A stretch of DNA of 64,000 bases from Deltaproteobacteria bacterium RIFCSPHIGHO2_02_FULL_40_28. GTDB taxonomy: Bacteria > UBA10199 > 2-12-FULL-40-28. Location of the stretch: assembly GCA_001798135.1 (NCBI GenBank), contig MGRJ01000006.1, positions 31,651 to 95,650 on the forward strand, read 5' to 3'. Both the position numbers and the translations under genes were made by a program. The notes beneath the pieces are model-generated. The model made no database searches. It was not told the origin of the DNA and saw only the letters and a program-made list of their open reading frames with translations. Shown in pieces: positions 8,133 to 63,934 of this stretch (positions are counted from its first letter, which is position 1; every line of letters starts with the position of its first letter).

Positions 8133-11100
8133 ATGAAAATAGGTGAATACATTATCGAAAACGAAATTGGTTGCGGGCTTACTTCAACTATTTATCGGGC
8201 TACAAAAGATAATCAAAAATTAGTCTTAAAACTTTTTAATTCCGAAATTTCAGATGAACTCAAAAGTTTTCTTTTTTTTGAATTTACTCTCCTTCGCGAA
8301 GTATCACATCCAAATTTAGTTTCTGTTGTAGATTTTGGCCTTCATCCCACCACAAACCAATTTTTTATTGTAGAAGAAGAAATAAAAGGAGACTCTCTTT
8401 GTGAATTTTTTAAAGAAAATAAAGAAAACAAATCTATCGCTCTTTTTGGAGAATGTCTTAATGCCTTACATGCTATTCATCGTACTGGTTTTTTGCATGG
8501 TGATCTATCCCCTGCCCATATACGTATCATCAACCAATCAGATGGACCTTTAGTAAAAATTATTGATCTTGGCATGAGCCATCCTCATTTAAGTCAACAA
8601 GGCGGTACTCCCGAATACATAGCCCCAGAAAAAATCACAGGTGATGGTGTTGATTTTAGATCTGATCTTTATTCTTTGGGTGTTTGCTTTTATGAAGCAC
8701 TAACAAAAAATAACCCCTTTCTTAAAAAAAGTCTTTCAGAAACTCTCGCAAGCCAAGTGTCAGTGGAACCAAAACCATGCATAGAATTAAATCCAAAAAT
8801 TCCACCTCAACTGGCCAAGGTGATCACTGAATGTTTGAGAAAAAATCCAGTAGATCGCCCACCCTCTCTCGCTTTTATTCAAGAAGCCCTTGGCTTATCG
8901 GCTTTTTCAGCAGACTTCACAAAAAATGCGCTCATTCATATTAAAAATTCTTGGATTGGAAGAGAAAAAGAAAAAAACGAAGCCATCACCTGGGCTTTTC
9001 ATGCAAAACAAGGATCTGCCCTTGTTATCATGGGTAAAAAAGGTCTTGGAAAATCAAACCTTGCAGAAGAAATTCGTCTCGAAATGGCCAAGAAAGGACT
9101 GAAGGTTACCCCTTATTTAGAAAATATTTCAGAAAAAGAAACTCAGTTTGTTATTTTTAACAACAAAAGAAATATTTTACCAAAAGATTTAGAAAAATTT
9201 TTGTCTTTTAATAAAACTCCTCCACCTCTCTTGATTTTAATTACGCCAGATCAAAATGATCTTTTTAATTTTCTTAAAAAATACTCCTTTGCTACTACAA
9301 CAATCCAGCTTCGTCCCCTTGATCGAAAAGAAATAATTCATCTCATTGTATTAAATTCTGGGGATAAAAATCCCCCTGCTTCTCTTGTTGATTTCATTTT
9401 TGAATCTTCACAAGGCAACCCAGCCCTAGCTAACGATTTACTTCGATCAATTGCAGAAACAGAACATCTTGTTGATTCGCATGGGAACTGGAATTTAGCT
9501 CCACTGGCTGAAAAAAAACTAACTTTAGAAAAACATCTGACCAAAAGTGATTTACTGTATGAAAAAATACTACAAAGCAAAAATAAAAATGAAAAAATTG
9601 AACTTTTCCTTCGTCTCGCCGAAAACAAATTAAGAACAGAACAAACTCATGACATCACCCTGCTTTTTGATGAAATAGAAAAACAAATAAATACTCTCCC
9701 AGAAAAAAATGAAAGCCTTTATAGACAGGCTCAGTTAATTGAAAAGAAAGTATGGTTCTTGCTTTTAAAAAATAAATTTAATAAGGGAGCAGAACTTTTA
9801 AAAACAGCACAAGCTTTTTTACAAAAATCAAAAAATAAGGATCCCTTACTCTCACTTAAACTCTCTAACTTCAAAGGACATATTTATCTTCATCAAGGAG
9901 AGCTTAAAAAAGCTAAAGATCTATTAGAAAAAAATTATAAACTCTGGAAAAAACTTCCTCTCCATCAAAAACAAAGAGTCATTAATAATGATTTGGCTCT
10001 TCTTTTGGTTGCTGAAAATGATTTTGAAAATGCCATTTTAATCCACCAAGAAATGCTTCATTTTTTGGAAGAGCATCTTCCCGAAGCCCTGCTCATTGCA
10101 AGAATTCATTATGCATTGGCCGAATGTCATCAAAAACAAAAAAAATTAAGAGAAGCCAGCCAACATCTTTTAATCTGTTCTGATATTTCACGATCAGAGA
10201 AACTTTGGTCTCTTCTTTTACGTTGCTATAACGCTATGGGAAATATCGAAAGGGAAGAAGGTCATGTTTCTCCTTGTTTAGAAAGTTATGAAAAAGGATA
10301 CCGTTTATCTCTCTATCTCAAAGACACCCTTTCTGGGGCTATCTTATCTCAAAATGCAGGAGCTGTTTATGCAGAGCAAGGAAATGCCTTAAAGGCCAAG
10401 GAATACCTGATACGCTCCGAAAATTTATTAAAACAACTGGATACAAACCTTCCTTACATCAAGGAACTTTCTACCCGTAATTCAATTGAATTAACTCATT
10501 TAGAAAAAACTTCTCTTAAAAAGGAAAAACCAAATTTTATGAATGAAAAATTAAAAGCCATCCTTCATATCAATCGTTTTTTAAACTCCGAACACGACCC
10601 TCAAGCATTACTACGCATTATTTTGCGTTATGCCTTAGATCTTTCAGGTGCAGAAAGTGGTTTAATTCTAACAGAAAAAAATAAGAATGAACTTCAGGTA
10701 GAAACCAGCCTTAACATCGAGGTAGATGACAATCTTACTCAAGTGAGTTGTCAGACAGCACGTAGGGTTTTAGAAACAGGTCAAGCTCTTAAAACCAATA
10801 ATGCCGCAGAAGATGAGGCCTTTAAAAATTATCAATCCGTCCTTCTTTTAGGATTAAAATCAATCTCCTGTCTCCCTATTCGAGCTCAATCTAAAATTTT
10901 GGGGGTTCTTTATTTGACCCATCGCTTTCAAAAAAATCTTTTCCAACCAGAAACAGAAGAAATCCTCCAGGCTTTTGCTGATCAAGCAGGATTAGCTTTA
11001 GAAAATGCCAGACTTCTTTCAGAAATTGAGAATCAAAATCAAAAACTTAAAAATACACTTTCAGAAACAGAAGAAAAATTAGAATTGATGGAAGAAAATC

Positions 11101-12302
11101 AAGAATACAATCAAAACCAGGGAGATATTGTTACCTCTTCTTCTCAAATTAAATCTCTTTTAAAATTAGCAGGAAAAGTTTCTGTCACCGATATTTCTCT
11201 TCTTATTCGTGGAGAATCTGGCACAGGAAAAGAATTATTAGCAAGATTTATCCATCAAAAAAGTACGCGGAGCAAAGGACCTTTTATAACCATCAATTGT
11301 TCGGCGCTTCCAGCCTCATTAATTGAAGCAGAACTTTTTGGCTATAGAACCGGGGCCTTTACAGGAGCTGTGCGTGACAAAAAAGGCTTAATTGAAATGG
11401 CTGATGGGGGCACTTTGTTTTTAGATGAAATTGGTGAGCTTGATGTTGCCCTTCAAGCTAAACTTTTGAGAACGATTCAAGAACGAGAAATCCTTAAGCT
11501 GGGAGACACTAAACCCATGCCCGTTAATATTCGTTTGCTTTGTGCTACCCTTAAAAATCTGAAAGAAGAAATAAAAAAAACAACCTTTCGTGAAGATCTC
11601 TATTACCGTGTGGCAGAAATGGAAATAGTTTTGCCTCCTTTAAGAGAACGAAAAGAAGACATTCCTATTCTTCTTCCTTACTTTGTTAAAAAACACGCCA
11701 AAGCCATGGGGCTTAATAAAGTTCCACAAATTGACAAACGCTTGGTAAAATTTTTTCTGGGTTATTCTTGGCCAGGAAATATTCGCGAGTTTGAAAGCAA
11801 AGTACGCATTGCCTTAGCCTTGTGCAATGGTAAAATTCTAAGCATTCATGATCTTCCACCAGAAGAAAAAGAAAAACTCACACAAAGTAAAAATGATGGC
11901 CCATTTATTTCAATCAACACCACGCAAAAAATAGAAAACATTTCTGACACTTCATGGGAAAAGTTAATTCAAGAAGGCAAAACGTGGCATGAAATTGAAA
12001 CTTTGATCATGGCCAAGGCTCTCATTGATGCTCATTGGAATACAGCCCTGGCTGCAAAAACTTTAAACATGGGGATAGCAACTCTTTACAACCGCATCAG
12101 ACAAGAAAAATTAAAAGACAGAATCGAAGAATTCCAAAAAATTCCCTCCCCACCTCTCAACCATCTCAAAAATTGTAAAAAAGAAGTATTCAAAGCAGCC
12201 CTCACCCTTTCCCAGCTTAAGCCTCACCCCGCTTCTCGTCTTCTCAACGTCTCCCCCGCTATGTTCTACAAGTGGATTAAACCAAAAATCTCCTCATTTT
12301 AA
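8133..12302 (+). CDS. Giant regulator: Ser/Thr kinase-like, P-loop ATPase, TPR, GAF and sigma-54 activator
   Basis: 1389 aa. Domain order: protein-kinase fold (1-255: G-loop EIGCGLTS 11-18, Lys33, HGD 122-124, DLG 145-147, APE 164-166); P-loop ATPase (Walker A GKKGLGKS 301-308); alpha-helical repeats (about 480-790); GAF (about 800-960); coiled coil; sigma-54 AAA+ domain (from about 997, Walker A GESGTGKE near 1026, intact GAFTGA near 1073); Fis-type helix-turn-helix (about 1284-1330); and a second HTH-like end (PASRLLNVSPAMFYKWIK). The kinase catalytic loop reads HGDLSPAHI, so the usual Lys and Asn are Ser and His and catalysis may be weak or absent. Likely a one-protein signalling hub that activates sigma-54 promoters. 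Ligand and targets unknown. Confidence 0.85.
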   Translation: MKIGEYIIENEIGCGLTSTIYRATKDNQKLVLKLFNSEISDELKSFLFFEFTLLREVSHPNLVSVVDFGLHPTTNQFFIVEEEIKGDSLCEFFKENKENKSIALFGECLNALHAIHRTGFLHGDLSPAHIRIINQSDGPLVKIIDLGMSHPHLSQQGGTPEYIAPEKITGDGVDFRSDLYSLGVCFYEALTKNNPFLKKSLSETLASQVSVEPKPCIELNPKIPPQLAKVITECLRKNPVDRPPSLAFIQEALGLSAFSADFTKNALIHIKNSWIGREKEKNEAITWAFHAKQGSALVIMGKKGLGKSNLAEEIRLEMAKKGLKVTPYLENISEKETQFVIFNNKRNILPKDLEKFLSFNKTPPPLLILITPDQNDLFNFLKKYSFATTTIQLRPLDRKEIIHLIVLNSGDKNPPASLVDFIFESSQGNPALANDLLRSIAETEHLVDSHGNWNLAPLAEKKLTLEKHLTKSDLLYEKILQSKNKNEKIELFLRLAENKLRTEQTHDITLLFDEIEKQINTLPEKNESLYRQAQLIEKKVWFLLLKNKFNKGAELLKTAQAFLQKSKNKDPLLSLKLSNFKGHIYLHQGELKKAKDLLEKNYKLWKKLPLHQKQRVINNDLALLLVAENDFENAILIHQEMLHFLEEHLPEALLIARIHYALAECHQKQKKLREASQHLLICSDISRSEKLWSLLLRCYNAMGNIEREEGHVSPCLESYEKGYRLSLYLKDTLSGAILSQNAGAVYAEQGNALKAKEYLIRSENLLKQLDTNLPYIKELSTRNSIELTHLEKTSLKKEKPNFMNEKLKAILHINRFLNSEHDPQALLRIILRYALDLSGAESGLILTEKNKNELQVETSLNIEVDDNLTQVSCQTARRVLETGQALKTNNAAEDEAFKNYQSVLLLGLKSISCLPIRAQSKILGVLYLTHRFQKNLFQPETEEILQAFADQAGLALENARLLSEIENQNQKLKNTLSETEEKLELMEENQEYNQNQGDIVTSSSQIKSLLKLAGKVSVTDISLLIRGESGTGKELLARFIHQKSTRSKGPFITINCSALPASLIEAELFGYRTGAFTGAVRDKKGLIEMADGGTLFLDEIGELDVALQAKLLRTIQEREILKLGDTKPMPVNIRLLCATLKNLKEEIKKTTFREDLYYRVAEMEIVLPPLRERKEDIPILLPYFVKKHAKAMGLNKVPQIDKRLVKFFLGYSWPGNIREFESKVRIALALCNGKILSIHDLPPEEKEKLTQSKNDGPFISINTTQKIENISDTSWEKLIQEGKTWHEIETLIMAKALIDAHWNTALAAKTLNMGIATLYNRIRQEKLKDRIEEFQKIPSPPLNHLKNCKKEVFKAALTLSQLKPHPASRLLNVSPAMFYKWIKPKISSF

Positions 12303-29098: not shown

Positions 29099-29842
29099 AT
29101 GAAACAAATTCTTCTCCTGTGTGCTGCCAAACCAGAATGGGCATCACTAAAAAAATTTTTGGATTTTAAAAAGCAAGAAGGGCCTCTTCCCTTTTTTCAT
29201 GCCAAAACCAAGCATATAAGCATTACATTAGTGCAAATTGGCATTGGGATAGCACAGGCCAAAAAAAGTATTCTCTCGCTTCTCTCTATCATTCCTCCCC
29301 CCGATGAAATTATTCATTTTGGAGTTTCAGGAAGCCTTGTCCCAGATCTTGAATCCGGAGATGTTGTTATTCCCTCTCATGTTTTTTTTCATACCCAACA
29401 ATCCTTGGAGTGTCATTTAGCTCTTAGGCAAAAACTAAAAGAAGCCACCTTAGAAGCTCAATTAAAAGTAATAGAAGGAGACCTGTTAACCAGCCCTTTT
29501 GTTCTTAAAACAGAACAAGAAAAAAAAGAAGCTCATCAAAAAACCAAAGCTTTTATTGTAGATATGGAAACCCATCCGGTGCTTCAAATTTTTACCACAA
29601 AAAATATTCCATATGCTGCCTTAAGAGTTATTTTTGATACGCTTTGCGTAGATCTTTCCAATTTGGATGATGCGGGCATGATGGATGAAATGGGGAATAT
29701 AAGTACCACCAAAACATTGGGAACCTTGGTTAAGAAACCAAAAATGATTTTTGAACTCTTGCCTTACAGAAAATTATTAAGTTTATGTCAGATTCGATTG
29801 GGTCTTGTTTTAGAAAAATATTTACAAAAAACTTCCATCTGA
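29099..29842 (+). CDS. Nucleoside phosphorylase / nucleosidase superfamily protein
   Basis: 247 aa, PNP/UDP-type fold. VQIGIGIAQAKKSI, HFGVSGSLVPDLESGDVVIPSH, then the substrate Glu motif VDMETHPVLQIF with a following R-V-I-F-D-T. Resembles MTA/SAH nucleosidase, futalosine hydrolase or the hopanoid-linked phosphorylase HpnG; the sequence does not decide which. The C-terminal 60 residues are basic and unlike the core family. Its 3' end overlaps the convergent RNR-like gene by about 20 bases. Confidence 0.7.
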   Translation: MKQILLLCAAKPEWASLKKFLDFKKQEGPLPFFHAKTKHISITLVQIGIGIAQAKKSILSLLSIIPPPDEIIHFGVSGSLVPDLESGDVVIPSHVFFHTQQSLECHLALRQKLKEATLEAQLKVIEGDLLTSPFVLKTEQEKKEAHQKTKAFIVDMETHPVLQIFTTKNIPYAALRVIFDTLCVDLSNLDDAGMMDEMGNISTTKTLGTLVKKPKMIFELLPYRKLLSLCQIRLGLVLEKYLQKTSI

Positions 29843-31894
29843 CGGAGTAAAATAAGAACCCAATGCGTTTTCTGACTGATCGAGATAAAACTTGGCTCCA
29901 ATGGGTTTGCCTGTCCATAAAAACAAGGCAGAACTCCAAAAAAAGTGCGGGGCTCCTCTATCAGGTAAGAAAACAAGTTGCCCCCAAAAGCCAGAACACC
30001 ATAGGCCCAGTTGATTTAAAACAAAATTCCAATCATCCAATTCGAAATACTGGGGTTTCCCCTTTTGCTGGGAAATCAAAGCCACTAGGGGAGGAGAAAA
30101 GGAAAGAGATTTTAATCCCATTTCATAAGCACGTAAAACTAAAGTACTGCATTCCTTGGATGTAAGGCCAGAATGAATAGGAATGAGTTTAAAAACCCCT
30201 TCTTCTGTAAATTTTTGAAAAGCTTTTTGGATAGCCAGATGAATATCATAATTCCACAGGGTGCTAGGTGGTTCAATGCCAGGGGTTACGCAAAAAATAG
30301 AACTTACCTCTCGGGCATCTCCCAAGGCAGTAACTGTTGCATGTCTTCTTCTTTGAGACTTGGCTAATTTGCTCTCAGCAAAATTAAAAAATACTCCACG
30401 ACGATCTGCTAACCTATGACTGGCTTCATTAAGCTGTCTTTGAATAAAAGACATGAGAGTTTCAATCAAACTTAAAGCCTCGTTCGATTGGTAATTTATT
30501 TTGAGTTGCGTGAGTAAATCAGAAAAGCCAGTAACACCAATCCCTAGTTTTCGATCTTGACTATGAACCTTGTCTCCTTTGGTTTCCATAATTTCGGCCA
30601 AGTTATCCAAAAAATGAAGAGAGGCTTTCAAGGTAAAGGCTAATTTTTCCCATTCGATTTGACCTTGGTACCCATGGTTGGCCAAGTTGATAAAACCTCC
30701 AAAACAAGCTTCGGATTGATGAAGAGAAATAGCCTGACGGGGAGAATATCCTTCAATAAATCCCAATCTGGGAGTGGGATTGTATTTTTCGAGTTGGTCA
30801 GAAAAAATAATATTTACCAAATCAGAATGAGGTTTTAAAGAAGCCAGTTTTAAAGCCTCAGTGATGGTTTTTTCAACAGAAGGAATAAGACCAAATTTTG
30901 TGAGGTGCCGATCTGCTAGACATAAAACCCAAGATAAGTTTGAGTCTCCTTTCAGGTTTTCAAACAAGAGATCAAAAAAACGGGAATCATCAGGATTAAT
31001 ATGAATCACACTTGCTGTGGGCTCTTTGTTTTCTTTACACATCATACGTGCAGATAAAATTAATTTTATTAAATCCCCGGCCTCGGGCAAGTTGGCATCA
31101 GCTTGAGGAATTTTTACCAAATTAATCAGACAGGAAATTCCCTGTTTCCAAAGCCTTCCTGCCTTTTTAAGATTATCTAGCATTTCTTCTAAATGCTGGC
31201 CCAAAAAGAGAGCCATTGTAGGATACAAAGGGCCCCTTCCAAAGTTTTTCAAAGAATGAGGATGGGGAAAAAACAATCCCTCATGTAAAATTTTTTCAAA
31301 AATTTTCATCGTACTTTCAATTTTAGCTAAAGGTTCATACCGTTGGTCAATACGGGCCATATCTTTTGCAATCCGAGATAAAAATCCTCTGGCATCTTCT
31401 AATAAATTTCCCTTGGCATTGCGGAGGCAATAATTTTCTTCTAAAATTTTTAAACCGATAGCAGGCAGAAGTGTAGACGAAAACCTGGATTTAGGCATTT
31501 GTGGAGCAGGAGTAACCAATTCTTGTTTGGTTTCCTGTTTTTGGGGGCGGGCCAAAATGGCAAGAATATCCTCTGAAAGGCTATCTTGCGCCGGGGGAAT
31601 CATTGGCTTTGTTTGCTCTAAGGGGAAAACTTTTGGCAAACCCATCAAACCCAATTCTTTTAGTTTTGTAAAAACAGCATCATCTAAAAAGGCTGGGCTC
31701 ACCCACTCTAGCTCTTTTTTATTCAGCTCTTTTTCAATTTCATCAGCAATAAGCCTCGCCATGGGTTCGGTTAGTTGTTCATGTTTTCTAAGCAGATCTA
31801 AAACAAAAGTGTCTTTTTTAAACCGAACAAGACCCTTAAAAGCCATAGAATCTGGCTTGTCTTTTTTGTTCGAATTTTTAGGAAACAAAGCCAT
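29822..31894 (-). CDS. Class II ribonucleotide reductase-like protein with degenerate active site
   Basis: 690 aa. An ATP-cone-like N-terminus (about 20-85) is followed by a fold alignable with adenosylcobalamin RNR (NrdJ): ILEENYCLRNAKGNLLED (150-167), EACFGGFINLA (395-405, normally E-x-C-x-LGSINLA), LGIGVTGFSDLL (450-461), RRHATVTALGDAREVSSIF...GIEP (516-541, normally RNATxTTIAPTGTIS...GIEP), and AYEMGLKSLSFS near the end. The catalytic NPCGE motif aligns without gaps to SPRQA (384-388), so the thiyl Cys and the Glu are Arg and Ala. The first redox Cys region reads PLYPTMALF. An extra 80-residue C-terminal region follows. Probably not a reductase; a regulatory or structural role is inference. 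Confidence 0.65.
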   Translation of the reverse strand: MALFPKNSNKKDKPDSMAFKGLVRFKKDTFVLDLLRKHEQLTEPMARLIADEIEKELNKKELEWVSPAFLDDAVFTKLKELGLMGLPKVFPLEQTKPMIPPAQDSLSEDILAILARPQKQETKQELVTPAPQMPKSRFSSTLLPAIGLKILEENYCLRNAKGNLLEDARGFLSRIAKDMARIDQRYEPLAKIESTMKIFEKILHEGLFFPHPHSLKNFGRGPLYPTMALFLGQHLEEMLDNLKKAGRLWKQGISCLINLVKIPQADANLPEAGDLIKLILSARMMCKENKEPTASVIHINPDDSRFFDLLFENLKGDSNLSWVLCLADRHLTKFGLIPSVEKTITEALKLASLKPHSDLVNIIFSDQLEKYNPTPRLGFIEGYSPRQAISLHQSEACFGGFINLANHGYQGQIEWEKLAFTLKASLHFLDNLAEIMETKGDKVHSQDRKLGIGVTGFSDLLTQLKINYQSNEALSLIETLMSFIQRQLNEASHRLADRRGVFFNFAESKLAKSQRRRHATVTALGDAREVSSIFCVTPGIEPPSTLWNYDIHLAIQKAFQKFTEEGVFKLIPIHSGLTSKECSTLVLRAYEMGLKSLSFSPPLVALISQQKGKPQYFELDDWNFVLNQLGLWCSGFWGQLVFLPDRGAPHFFWSSALFLWTGKPIGAKFYLDQSENALGSYFTPSDGSFL

Positions 31895-31989: not shown

Positions 31990-33063
31990 CTAGTAATACA
32001 TTTTTATGATATCAATTATTTTCCTCGTAACGCTGGTTAAGGGGTAATTGATCAATTGTGCCTTTGAAACCATTTTGCCTTCACCTTGGAATAATGTTTT
32101 GGATTTTGAATGAACGAGGTAGGGATAAACCTTCATCCTGCGATTCATAATAGAATGTTTAAGCAAGGGGAGGTTTTCTTTAACCTTAATATTTCTAAGA
32201 CCAGTTTTTTGAAGTTCTTTTTTCAAAAGAGAAAAATCTTTTGCAACTTCCTGCTCTACTTCTAAAAGAGGAAACTCCCACTGATTTCCCAAAACCTCTC
32301 CCAACTTTCTTTTCCTTAAAAGAAATTTTGAATCTTTTGTTAAAATTAAGCAAGCCAACCATTGATCTACATACCTGGTTTTTGTTTTTTTAATTGGATA
32401 GTTTTCACTTGTACCAAGGTGCCCCACCTTGCAGTGAGATAAAACAGGGCAAATGAAACAACTGGGATTTTTAGGTGTGCAAACAGTTGCTCCCAACTCC
32501 ATCATGGCCTGGTTAAAATCCCCTGGATTTTTTTGATCTAAAAGTTGATTGGCCACCTCTTGAACAAATTGTTTAGTAGAAGCCTCTCCAATATCTCCAC
32601 CATATGCTTTCAGGCGTGTAACAACACGCATCACGTTTCCATCAACAACGGCCACAGGCTCGCCAAAGGCAATGCTGGCAATAGCTGCAGCAGTATAGCT
32701 ACCCAACCCTGGTAATTCCATCAATTGAGTTTTTGTTTTTGGAATTTCTCCAGCTTGTTCAGCAATAACGAGGCGGGCTGCTTTTTGAAAATTTCGAATG
32801 CGATTATAGTAACCAAGACCTGCCCATAATTTTAAAAGCTCAGCTTCTGAAACTTTGGCTACATCTTCAAGTGATGGGAGTGTTTTTAAAAAACGGTTGT
32901 AATAGGGGATAACAACTTCAACTGTTGTTTGTTGAAGCATAATTTCGGAAAGCCAAATTTTGTAAGGATTAGAGGTGTGCCGCCACGGGAGATTGCGTTT
33001 ATGTTTAGAATACCACGTTAAAAGAGACTTTCGAAAATCAGGCAAAATAAAATTCAACATCAT
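31990..33063 (-). CDS. mutY: A/G-specific adenine glycosylase MutY
   Basis: 357 aa; removes adenine mispaired with 8-oxoguanine. Signatures are MLQQTTVEVVIPYYNRFL, the helix-hairpin-helix LPGLGSYTAAAIASIAFGE with VVDGNVMRVVTR (catalytic Asp), and the [4Fe-4S] cysteines C-x6-C-x2-C-x5-C (CTPKNPSCFICPVLSHC). The C-terminal NUDIX-like 8-oxoG recognition domain starts near YVDQWLACLIL. Full length. Confidence 0.95.
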   Translation of the reverse strand: MMLNFILPDFRKSLLTWYSKHKRNLPWRHTSNPYKIWLSEIMLQQTTVEVVIPYYNRFLKTLPSLEDVAKVSEAELLKLWAGLGYYNRIRNFQKAARLVIAEQAGEIPKTKTQLMELPGLGSYTAAAIASIAFGEPVAVVDGNVMRVVTRLKAYGGDIGEASTKQFVQEVANQLLDQKNPGDFNQAMMELGATVCTPKNPSCFICPVLSHCKVGHLGTSENYPIKKTKTRYVDQWLACLILTKDSKFLLRKRKLGEVLGNQWEFPLLEVEQEVAKDFSLLKKELQKTGLRNIKVKENLPLLKHSIMNRRMKVYPYLVHSKSKTLFQGEGKMVSKAQLINYPLTSVTRKIIDIIKMYY

Positions 33064-33132: not shown

Positions 33133-33324
33133 CTACAAATCCTGTGGTTTAACCGTAGAGCGACGATTGGCCTTGGTTCTTTCCACTGCGCAATCAAGCA
33201 ATGCATAAACTTTTTTGCTGATGGCATCAATTGCATCTGATGAGGTCATGCATTTTTTAGATTTAATGTAAGAACGTACCTTGCTTGCAACCACAAGGAC
33301 TTCTTTTCCACCTTTTTTAGCCAT
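33133..33324 (-). CDS. Bacterial histone-fold protein (Bdellovibrio Bd0055 type)
   Basis: 63 aa from ATG 33324, chosen for AAAGGAG ten bases upstream; the frame extends further but without a ribosome site. One compact histone fold: alpha1 LVVASKVRSYIKSK, a long alpha2 SSDAIDAISKKVYALLDCAVERTKAN, then the R-x-T plus D signature RRSTVKPQDL forming a truncated alpha3. Basic N-terminus MAKKGGK. This is the layout of single-domain bacterial histones such as Bdellovibrio Bd0055, which coat DNA. Own promoter and ribosome site; probably an abundant nucleoid protein (inference). It is not HU/IHF. Confidence 0.8.
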   Translation of the reverse strand: MAKKGGKEVLVVASKVRSYIKSKKCMTSSDAIDAISKKVYALLDCAVERTKANRRSTVKPQDL

Positions 33325-33364
33325 ATTAAAGTCTCCTTTGTTTAAAAGTAAAAAATAGAAAGTT

Positions 33365-33393
33365 ATCTTAAACACTTTTTTTGACGGGGCCAA
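33365..33393 (-). promoter_or_regulatory. Probable promoter of the histone gene
   Basis: On the minus strand, TTGGCC (33388-33393) and TAAGAT (33365-33370), 17 bases apart, followed by an AT-rich leader of about 35 bases. Confidence 0.5.
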
Positions 33394-61666: not shown

Positions 61667-63934
61667 TTACACTAAACGCGCTAAAACCTCAATGGGTCTT
61701 ACAGAGCGCACCAGGGTAGCTCCAGCGGCTGGACTTCTTTTTGCAAATGAAAAAGATGTATCAGAAGAAAGTGTATCAACTTCAGCAAACTCTCTTAAAT
61801 GTGCAAGCGCTTCCTCTACTGCTTCGGGTTCACCGTGTTTGATAATTTGAGCAAGCTCGTCAAAATCATATCCTGCATCAACAAGTAGCCCAATGGTTTC
61901 CACGTCATAACCATCAGACTCTAAAACTTGCATGATATCGGTAGTACCTACTGGATCACTAGTTCTTTGTGGCCCTCTAGGAGGTGGGCCATTACGCGAA
62001 GGAGTAGAACCTCCACGTCCTCCCCTTTTTTGCAGCATGGGAACAAATTCTCCTGTAGCGTTACGTGTATAAGGTCTCAGCATCTCTCCATAACGAACGG
62101 TGATGGTATTCATGCCCATTAAGGGGGGTAAATCACGCACTCCATTTAATCTCACAACAAGAGCATCTACCGTGGCACTAGGAAAAGTGGGGCCTAAATT
62201 TTCAGGGAGACTAAACCCAATTTCATCATCATGAAAAAATTCAACACCAAGGACACTGATACCAAGGGTTTGTGGCAATCGAATAAGATAAGGGGGTTCT
62301 CCTGGTTCATCCCAATCAATATTCACTTCAAGAAAACCACCAAGATTTTGTTCTAAAGTGGCTAAAGAATCCAAAATCCAAAAACTACTGGCACGCGTTT
62401 CGGCTTCATCTTCTTCCAAAAGGGCTTGGGCGGTTATAGCGTTGCCATAGCGCCTCTGTAACTCTGCTGTAATCCCTACAAAATCAAAAAAGTGGTTTAA
62501 TTGACTCAAAGCACCTTGCGTAAGCCCAACTTGTCTATGGGCTTTTTCAAGCACTAAATCACTCCATCCTGCAGGAGGGTGTTTCAACATTTTTCTTATT
62601 TCCCCAAAAGCCATGTTGGCTTGTTGTATCCTGGAAATTAAACGGGTTATTGTGTACGCAATGAGGTGTCTTTCCCAATCATTGGTAATATTTTTTCCTT
62701 GTAAAAGATCCTGTAAACCAGCAATAGCCATGGCAAAATCAAAGGCAGATTGCCCTAGAGCCGCCATCGCAAGGCCAGGATCCCTCTCTCGATACATCAT
62801 CCCTCGGCCTAAATTAGAATACCCTGAATGAATTAAAAGGGCACTTACAACACCTCTCTCTCCCCACCTTACAAGGCGATCATAGTCATCGGTTCCAAAG
62901 GGATAATTAAATCTTTGCACAACGGCAATATCTCTGTTGTCTACACGATAAGAATCAAATATAGCACCTTGAGTCGCATGGTGAGTTTGTGTATATTCAG
63001 CATCTTCAGCCTGTGCTTTTTCTAAAACCAAAGCTACGTTGCTCCACCAAAGTAATGTCATTTTGTGTGCCAAAAGATCAGCCCCTGCATAGGCCATGGC
63101 AGCAGAGTGAGGATGAACTCTTTGAGATACAAATCCTTTCCCTAAATTTAAAAAACCTTCTGCAGCATTAAACAGAGTAAGCGCAGCCCGATAGGGGTTT
63201 TTCCCTTTTTGCATTTGTTCTGCCTGAGTTAAACTGTTTCCAATGCGTCCTAAAACTTCCGGATTAATACCAAACAAAGAATCTGGGAAAGGAAGTGGAA
63301 AACCATCTGGAGAATACTGAGGTATGGGCGGTTGAGTGGTGAGAACAATCATCAGGGTATCTGGATCAATAGATAATTGAAAACGCGTGCGTAATTTATC
63401 GGCGTCATCATAGGGATATTCATACTCTTGAAATTCGGGGATCTCCTCTGGGGGAAGCTCATCACCTGGCTCCAATCCTAAATCAACCCTTCGCCTTGCT
63501 TGATAACTCTCTGTTGTTTCTGCTACTCGTCTTGTTAAAAACTCCCTTTGTTCACCTGACAAATAAGCGCTCTCTAAGATTTCTCCAAACCAGGCTCTGG
63601 CATTGGCCAAATCAGAAAGGGTTTGCCGACTGGCTTCGGCTAACAAGGTTATACCATCTAAACTGCGAAGCATCTCTAGATCGGAAATAGTAAGTACACC
63701 AGAAACTATGCTATTTTGGGTTTCCAGCCCACTTCTTTCGGTCATAAGAGTTTCTCTTTGTTCGGCAATTGCAGCTTCTACCTCTTCTATTTCTCTCGTT
63801 CCATCTGTCATACCTTCCACTTCATCTAAAACATGCAGCATACGATTAACACAAAAGATAATGGCTTCCCTCACTAAAAAAACCACACGGACAGAAGCCT
63901 CATCATCCCCAAATTCATCACTAGGTGGATTCAC
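61667..63934 (-). CDS. Large unknown protein, probably 5'-truncated by an IS30-type element
   Basis: 755 codons from GTG 63934, which overlaps the transposase stop at 63921. The real start is probably lost. Mostly helical: a coiled-coil-like N-terminal part (EEVEAAIAEQRETLMTERSG) and a helical centre (RAALTLFNAAEGFLNLGKGF, LAMAALGQSAFDFAMAIAG) that could be TPR-like. A beta-rich part follows (PQTLGISVLGVEFFHDDEIG), then a Gly/Arg/Pro linker, and a C-terminal UBA-like segment (VETIGLLVDAGYDFDELAQI). No signal peptide in the part seen. Family unknown. The last 10 codons form the 33-bp direct repeat. Confidence 0.6.
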   Translation of the reverse strand: MNPPSDEFGDDEASVRVVFLVREAIIFCVNRMLHVLDEVEGMTDGTREIEEVEAAIAEQRETLMTERSGLETQNSIVSGVLTISDLEMLRSLDGITLLAEASRQTLSDLANARAWFGEILESAYLSGEQREFLTRRVAETTESYQARRRVDLGLEPGDELPPEEIPEFQEYEYPYDDADKLRTRFQLSIDPDTLMIVLTTQPPIPQYSPDGFPLPFPDSLFGINPEVLGRIGNSLTQAEQMQKGKNPYRAALTLFNAAEGFLNLGKGFVSQRVHPHSAAMAYAGADLLAHKMTLLWWSNVALVLEKAQAEDAEYTQTHHATQGAIFDSYRVDNRDIAVVQRFNYPFGTDDYDRLVRWGERGVVSALLIHSGYSNLGRGMMYRERDPGLAMAALGQSAFDFAMAIAGLQDLLQGKNITNDWERHLIAYTITRLISRIQQANMAFGEIRKMLKHPPAGWSDLVLEKAHRQVGLTQGALSQLNHFFDFVGITAELQRRYGNAITAQALLEEDEAETRASSFWILDSLATLEQNLGGFLEVNIDWDEPGEPPYLIRLPQTLGISVLGVEFFHDDEIGFSLPENLGPTFPSATVDALVVRLNGVRDLPPLMGMNTITVRYGEMLRPYTRNATGEFVPMLQKRGGRGGSTPSRNGPPPRGPQRTSDPVGTTDIMQVLESDGYDVETIGLLVDAGYDFDELAQIIKHGEPEAVEEALAHLREFAEVDTLSSDTSFSFAKRSPAAGATLVRSVRPIEVLARLV
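61668..61700. repeat. 33-bp direct repeat, right copy
   Basis: Exact match to 60241-60273, located at the very 3' end of the large gene (its last codons). Together the copies bracket 1.4 kb holding only the ATPase gene. Confidence 0.9.

Follow-up and report, generated by a model that had tools for sequence, protein, structure and literature searches.

A ribonucleotide reductase-like gene beside mutY probably encodes a retained, non-catalytic protein

The locus and its ribonucleotide reductase-like gene

The window, a 64,000-nucleotide stretch of contig MGRJ01000006.1 from Deltaproteobacteria bacterium RIFCSPHIGHO2_02_FULL_40_28, carries on its minus strand a gene for a protein related to ribonucleotide reductases (RNRs). 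The gene, its two neighbours, and the domains and sites discussed below are located as follows.

29099..29842 (+): PNP/UDP-phosphorylase-family protein, convergent with the RNR-like gene, the 3' ends overlapping by 21 bp
29822..31894 (-): gene for the RNR-like candidate pseudoenzyme, 690 aa (from the ORF, profile matches and a fold Z of 37 to T. maritima NrdJ)
29825..30085 (-): predicted disordered, lineage-specific tail, residues 604-690, ending ...GSYFTPSDGSFL (pLDDT < 50)
30083..31477 (-): RNR alpha domain and ten-stranded barrel, residues 140-604 (model and fold match)
30302..30319 (-): DAREVS replacing the substrate-phosphate loop PTGTIS (alignment)
30335..30700 (-): half-barrel conserved in the dead clade, residues 399-520 (clade identity)
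30731..30745 (-): SPRQA replacing NPCGE, the finger loop of the radical Cys (alignment)
31124..31141 (-): GISCLI replacing the Gly-rich loop GGGTGF (alignment)
31217..31219 (-): T226 replacing the first redox Cys, C134 of T. maritima NrdJ (alignment)
31646..31837 (-): probable degenerate ATP-cone, residues 20-83, with helices kept and the β-hairpin bearing KKDG missing
31990..33063 (-): mutY, directly upstream and on the same strand

The protein matches the Pfam family Ribonuc_red_lgC (E 5e-20) and the NCBIfam model PRK08665 for B12-dependent RNR (E 1.4e-53), the latter scoring 182 bits where the cut-off is 961. Judged by these profiles, its kinship with RNRs is far beyond chance, and the alignment of its segments with class II landmarks in the original prediction is borne out. 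The alpha domain and ten-stranded barrel of class II NrdJ (PRK08665/TIGR02504; T. maritima structures 1xje and 3o0o) are also predicted for the window protein, and both share, in order, the landmarks LGIGVTGFSDLL, EAC..GFINLA, RRHATVTAL and GIEP. The NCBIfam "ribonucleotide reductase-like protein" PRK06948 is a weak match (E 5e-11), its 42 bits lying far below the cut-off of 906. The uninterrupted frame of 690 codons, together with G+C contents at the codon positions resembling those of the neighbouring genes, argues for coding constraint. The chance of finding such a frame open after near-saturated divergence would be about 4e-15 at saturation.

Elsewhere in the window, positions 33133-33393 upstream of mutY encode a small basic protein with no Pfam match, and a similar sequence lies at the same place in the related genome G007 (L053). 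The 755-aa ORF at 61667-63934 has no Pfam match at E 1e-4. Positions 8133-12302 encode a 1389-aa fusion of protein kinase, TPR, GAF and sigma-54 activator domains, an architecture resembled by one near the RNR-like gene of G017.

The genome of the window (G000; 2.16 Mb, 100% complete) also contains a true nrdJ, for which the original prediction had suggested a search: contig 23 (G000:C23) encodes a long class II NrdJ, the sole other RNR found. Neither a class I small (beta) subunit nor a class III NrdD was found in this genome, whereas NrdR is present. No ATP-cone was detected in the canonical NrdJ. This long NrdJ (L001, 916-5631) holds an intein exactly at its catalytic cysteine (NASNP^CVTGD...VVHN^CSEY).

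Active-site residues and predicted structure

In a phmmer alignment with 1xje, SPRQAI falls on NPCGEI without a gap, confirming the earlier placement of SPRQA at residues 384-388. Residues C134, N320, C322, E324 and C333 of T. maritima NrdJ correspond to T226, S384, R386, A388 and C397 of the window protein. Among 84 sequences outside the clade of the RNR-like protein, position 134 is Cys in all 84, position 320 is Asn in 81 (Asp in two, X in one), position 322 is Cys in 83 and position 324 Glu in 83 (X in one each), and position 333 is Cys in 82 (Ala in two). None of the 12 clade members has all five catalytic residues together. The window protein keeps one cysteine of the barrel redox pair, C397 in the EAC motif, and reads KQGISCLI where the Gly loop KSGGGTGF is expected; the alterations of the first redox-Cys region and of the Gly-rich loop had both been recognized before, while the change from PTGTIS to DAREVS in the phosphate loop is a further loss. 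Its last 45 residues contain neither a C-terminal Cys pair nor a zinc finger. Unlike class II NrdJ, the window protein is thereby without the catalytic Cys, Asn and Glu and the first redox Cys, and also without the Gly loop, the phosphate loop and the C-terminal Cys pair. We rejected the possibility of an intact Cys/Cys/Glu set hidden elsewhere in the ORF, of which neither the ungapped alignment nor the fold match gives any sign. Reductase activity is very improbable for this protein.

We modeled the window protein with AlphaFold2 from 36 alignment rows (mean pLDDT 73.9; 257 residues at 90 or above; pLDDT below 50 at residues 87-139 and 604-690). The predicted model superimposes on T. maritima NrdJ (1xjf/3o0o) with a Z of 37.3 and an r.m.s.d. 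of 2.8-2.9 Å over about 460 residues (Foldseek E 7e-26). Since most of the alignment rows are active RNRs, the model is only partly independent of the homology. The predicted fold, taken with the lost catalytic residues, agrees with the fold-retaining, non-reductase paralogue originally proposed.

The N-terminal residues 20-83 appear to be a degenerate ATP-cone, the evidence for which is weak piece by piece and consistent when taken together. Pfam ATP-cone matches stay below the threshold in five family members, hhalign against NrdR cones gives P 1.9e-5 (prob 78), the model of the isolated domain ranks NrdR first and second with Z of 6.1 and 5.6, which are low alone, and the top Foldseek match is NrdR with prob 0.96, though at E 0.3. 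The helical bundle and the F-D-R-x-K entry of the ATP-cone (PF03477; NrdR, NrdA) align with the window N-terminus, whereas the β-hairpin carrying the K-[KR]-D-G nucleotide site is absent in all nine aligned members and the window cone scores below the Pfam cut-off. Partial cones have a precedent in class Ib NrdE (PMC9669993). Without the nucleotide-binding hairpin, the usual ATP/dATP regulation is unlikely.

The tail of about 87 C-terminal residues is predicted to be disordered. A YF..P-like ending is also found in G003 and G004, but it is only suggestive because 3 of 300 shuffles reach it. Members from families f8, f9 and f14 have a TSCPD domain after the barrel.

Distribution, conservation and history of the second gene

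All eight searched genomes of the order (G000 to G007, five families) carry both a long canonical NrdJ and a second, RNR-like gene. Other families of the class also carry the second gene, which is present in 11 of 34 class genomes at least 85% complete. A search of genome contigs with the single protein found no relatives, and a four-row alignment search returned 62 loci, nearly all of them active-looking RNRs outside the clade. In five of the eight order genomes (G000, G003, G004, G006 and G007) the gene immediately upstream, on the same strand, is mutY; the linkage was not seen in G001, G002, G005 or the other families, and the copies in f8, f9 and f14 adjoin an SLT/LysM transglycosylase gene instead.

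The finger loop of the second gene is intact in G006 and G007 (NPCGEQ) and reads DPCSG in G002, HPCHA in G003, GVEGD in G004, SPRQA in G000, NPRNQ in G001 and NLQGQ in G005; HPGGTP, RPGGAP, VSPGF and others occur in the other families of the class. The replacement differs in every lineage, and we rejected the idea that SPRQA is a new motif conserved among orthologues. The PRK08665 scores fall stepwise from 921 bits in G007 through 648 in G002, 304 in G004, 241 in G021 and 205 in G011 to 182 in the window protein. The G006 copy has the same hairpin-less cone as other members. In family f2 the gene is degraded, being split in G001 and missing the cone in G005.

Two copies show other irregularities. 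A frameshift, either genuine or an assembly artefact, splits the NPCGE copy at the mutY locus of G006 (L046 6781-8890, G006:C40). G011 has on contig C33 (L048/L007) an additional, separate RNR copy in which SPYGE replaces NPCGE and a TAG stop interrupts the frame; this copy clusters with NrdJ of the 607-626 aa type, which in family f14 is active-like.

Selection was estimated on the orthologue of a sister genus, g21 of family f14, since the window gene has no near relative. The dN/dS of the dead gene there is 0.21 for the pair G021-G043 and 0.28 and 0.24 for other pairs, demonstrating purifying selection in that genus; the active 626-aa NrdJ gives 0.04 for G021-G043. The conservation pattern is inverted, having moved from the active site to the cone and the half-barrel: pairs of dead-clade members are on average 40% identical over the N-terminal domain (20-83), 38% at 399-470 and 32% at 471-520, against 19% over the first half-barrel and 15% for the finger loop, which is 84% identical among active RNRs.

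On an rpoC tree, the sampled carriers form one clade (13 genomes, SH-aLRT 100) and 17 non-carriers fall in another; G003, with no rpoC match, could not be placed. The NPCGE-intact G006 and G007 are nested inside the carrier clade, which means, if loss is irreversible and descent vertical, that the catalytic site disappeared independently at least four times, located minimally in the ancestor of f8/f9/f14, in f2, in G000 with G004, and in G002. Alternatively, and compatibly with the functional interpretation given below, the site may have been lost once in an ancestor, and an active gene may later have taken the place of the G006 and G007 copies, giving them their NPCGE. In favour of this, the dead copies group together in the gene tree when outgroups are included (SH-aLRT 99; 86/95 without the longest rows). 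Against it, G006 and G007 hold their copies at the same mutY locus, and the G006 copy shares the hairpin-less cone; G002 joins G006/G007 when outgroups are omitted (89/96), as in the species tree; and the gene tree rejects monophyly neither of the order (p-AU 0.31) nor of family f3 (p 0.063). We rejected a single loss event as an established history because trees and topology tests are undecided, and regard it as rather doubtful. Repeated loss is favoured, not proven, by synteny and the shared cone.

Possible role and alternative explanations

We consider it highly probable that the window protein is non-catalytic, retains the fold and has been kept. The predicted fold, the lack of a complete catalytic set in each of the 12 clade members, the presence of both genes throughout the sampled order, the single rpoC clade of carriers, the intact ORF, the dN/dS in the sister genus and the shifted conservation all point to a pseudoenzyme. 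Its origin would be an active class II RNR beside mutY in the ancestor of the order. As the canonical long NrdJ would supply dNTPs, the second copy may have been freed from catalysis. The radical Cys, the Asn and Glu, the redox pair, the phosphate loop and the C-terminal Cys pair would have been lost, probably in several lineages independently, and the folded half-barrel and degenerate ATP-cone retained. Through cone, half-barrel and tail it might act as a protein-binding scaffold, whose most likely target would be dNTP supply, that is the true NrdJ, or MutY-dependent repair. The mutY linkage and the apparently coneless canonical NrdJ of the same genome count for such a role; the missing linkage in three order genomes and in other families counts against it, as do the hairpin-less cone and the degradation in f2, the latter predicted equally by slow decay. 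The joint claim, that the pseudoenzyme is retained and that it serves NrdJ or MutY-linked repair as a binding or regulatory scaffold, seems to us evenly poised, and regulation of the true NrdJ is possible but unproven. Only tentatively would we go on to suggest that the catalytic site was lost at least four times independently, with the protein surviving as a regulatory subunit in dNTP synthesis or MutY-linked repair.

A redundant second RNR under weak constraint, with no function of its own and heading for loss, would account for the long branches of the gene tree (about 1 to 5 changes per column), the lost cone and broken frame in f2, the frameshift in G006 and the in-frame stop of the SPYGE copy in G011. 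Such a slowly decaying relic is nevertheless unlikely given the dN/dS of 0.21-0.28 in f14, the retention of the gene throughout the sampled genomes of a deep clade, and full-length ORFs with conserved cone and half-barrel. The original prediction had also considered a nucleotide or cobalamin sensor using the old effector, substrate or cofactor sites, which the retained RNR fold with its cone and the reliance of G000 on class II RNR would suit. Nucleotide sensing is disfavoured because the Gly and phosphate loops are lost and the cone lacks the nucleotide-binding β-hairpin; the first half-barrel, moreover, is among the poorly conserved parts of the clade, and we judge a sensor quite improbable. 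There is a still slighter chance that the protein is an enzyme of another kind, its barrel remodelled for a different reaction in which R386 or other residues took over catalysis. New chemistry could be accommodated in a barrel whose centre has been rearranged, and the core is predicted to fold with pLDDT above 90; but nowhere is the clade less conserved than around the finger loop, where the residues differ by lineage, unlike a new shared active site.

A retained pseudoenzyme would resemble the R1 homologues of betaherpesviruses (MCMV M45, HCMV UL45, HHV-6B U28), which are enzymatically inactive and act by binding proteins (PMC11772975). The proposed likeness is an RNR large-subunit homologue kept as a protein-binding scaffold after loss of activity. 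The viral proteins are class I-type, arose by an independent loss and target host immune proteins, whereas the window protein is a bacterial, chromosomal class II derivative. We found no description of an inactive bacterial RNR paralogue in the searched literature, and the present one would, if the interpretation is true, be the first RNR family without catalysis to be reported from cellular life.

RNR counts as an essential enzyme whose active site hardly ever changes. If the fold was kept while its chemistry was erased in parallel, it would have a selectable non-catalytic function, and the series from G006/G007 through G002 to G000 would offer graded stages from enzyme to pseudoenzyme in one orthologous gene. 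The case is also a warning that annotating RNRs from domain hits alone yields too many functional ones.

Among other RNRs, the Woesearchaeota sequences L124 and L127 have DSCGE where NPCGE is expected, an Ala at the position of the second redox Cys, and no C-terminal Cys pair.
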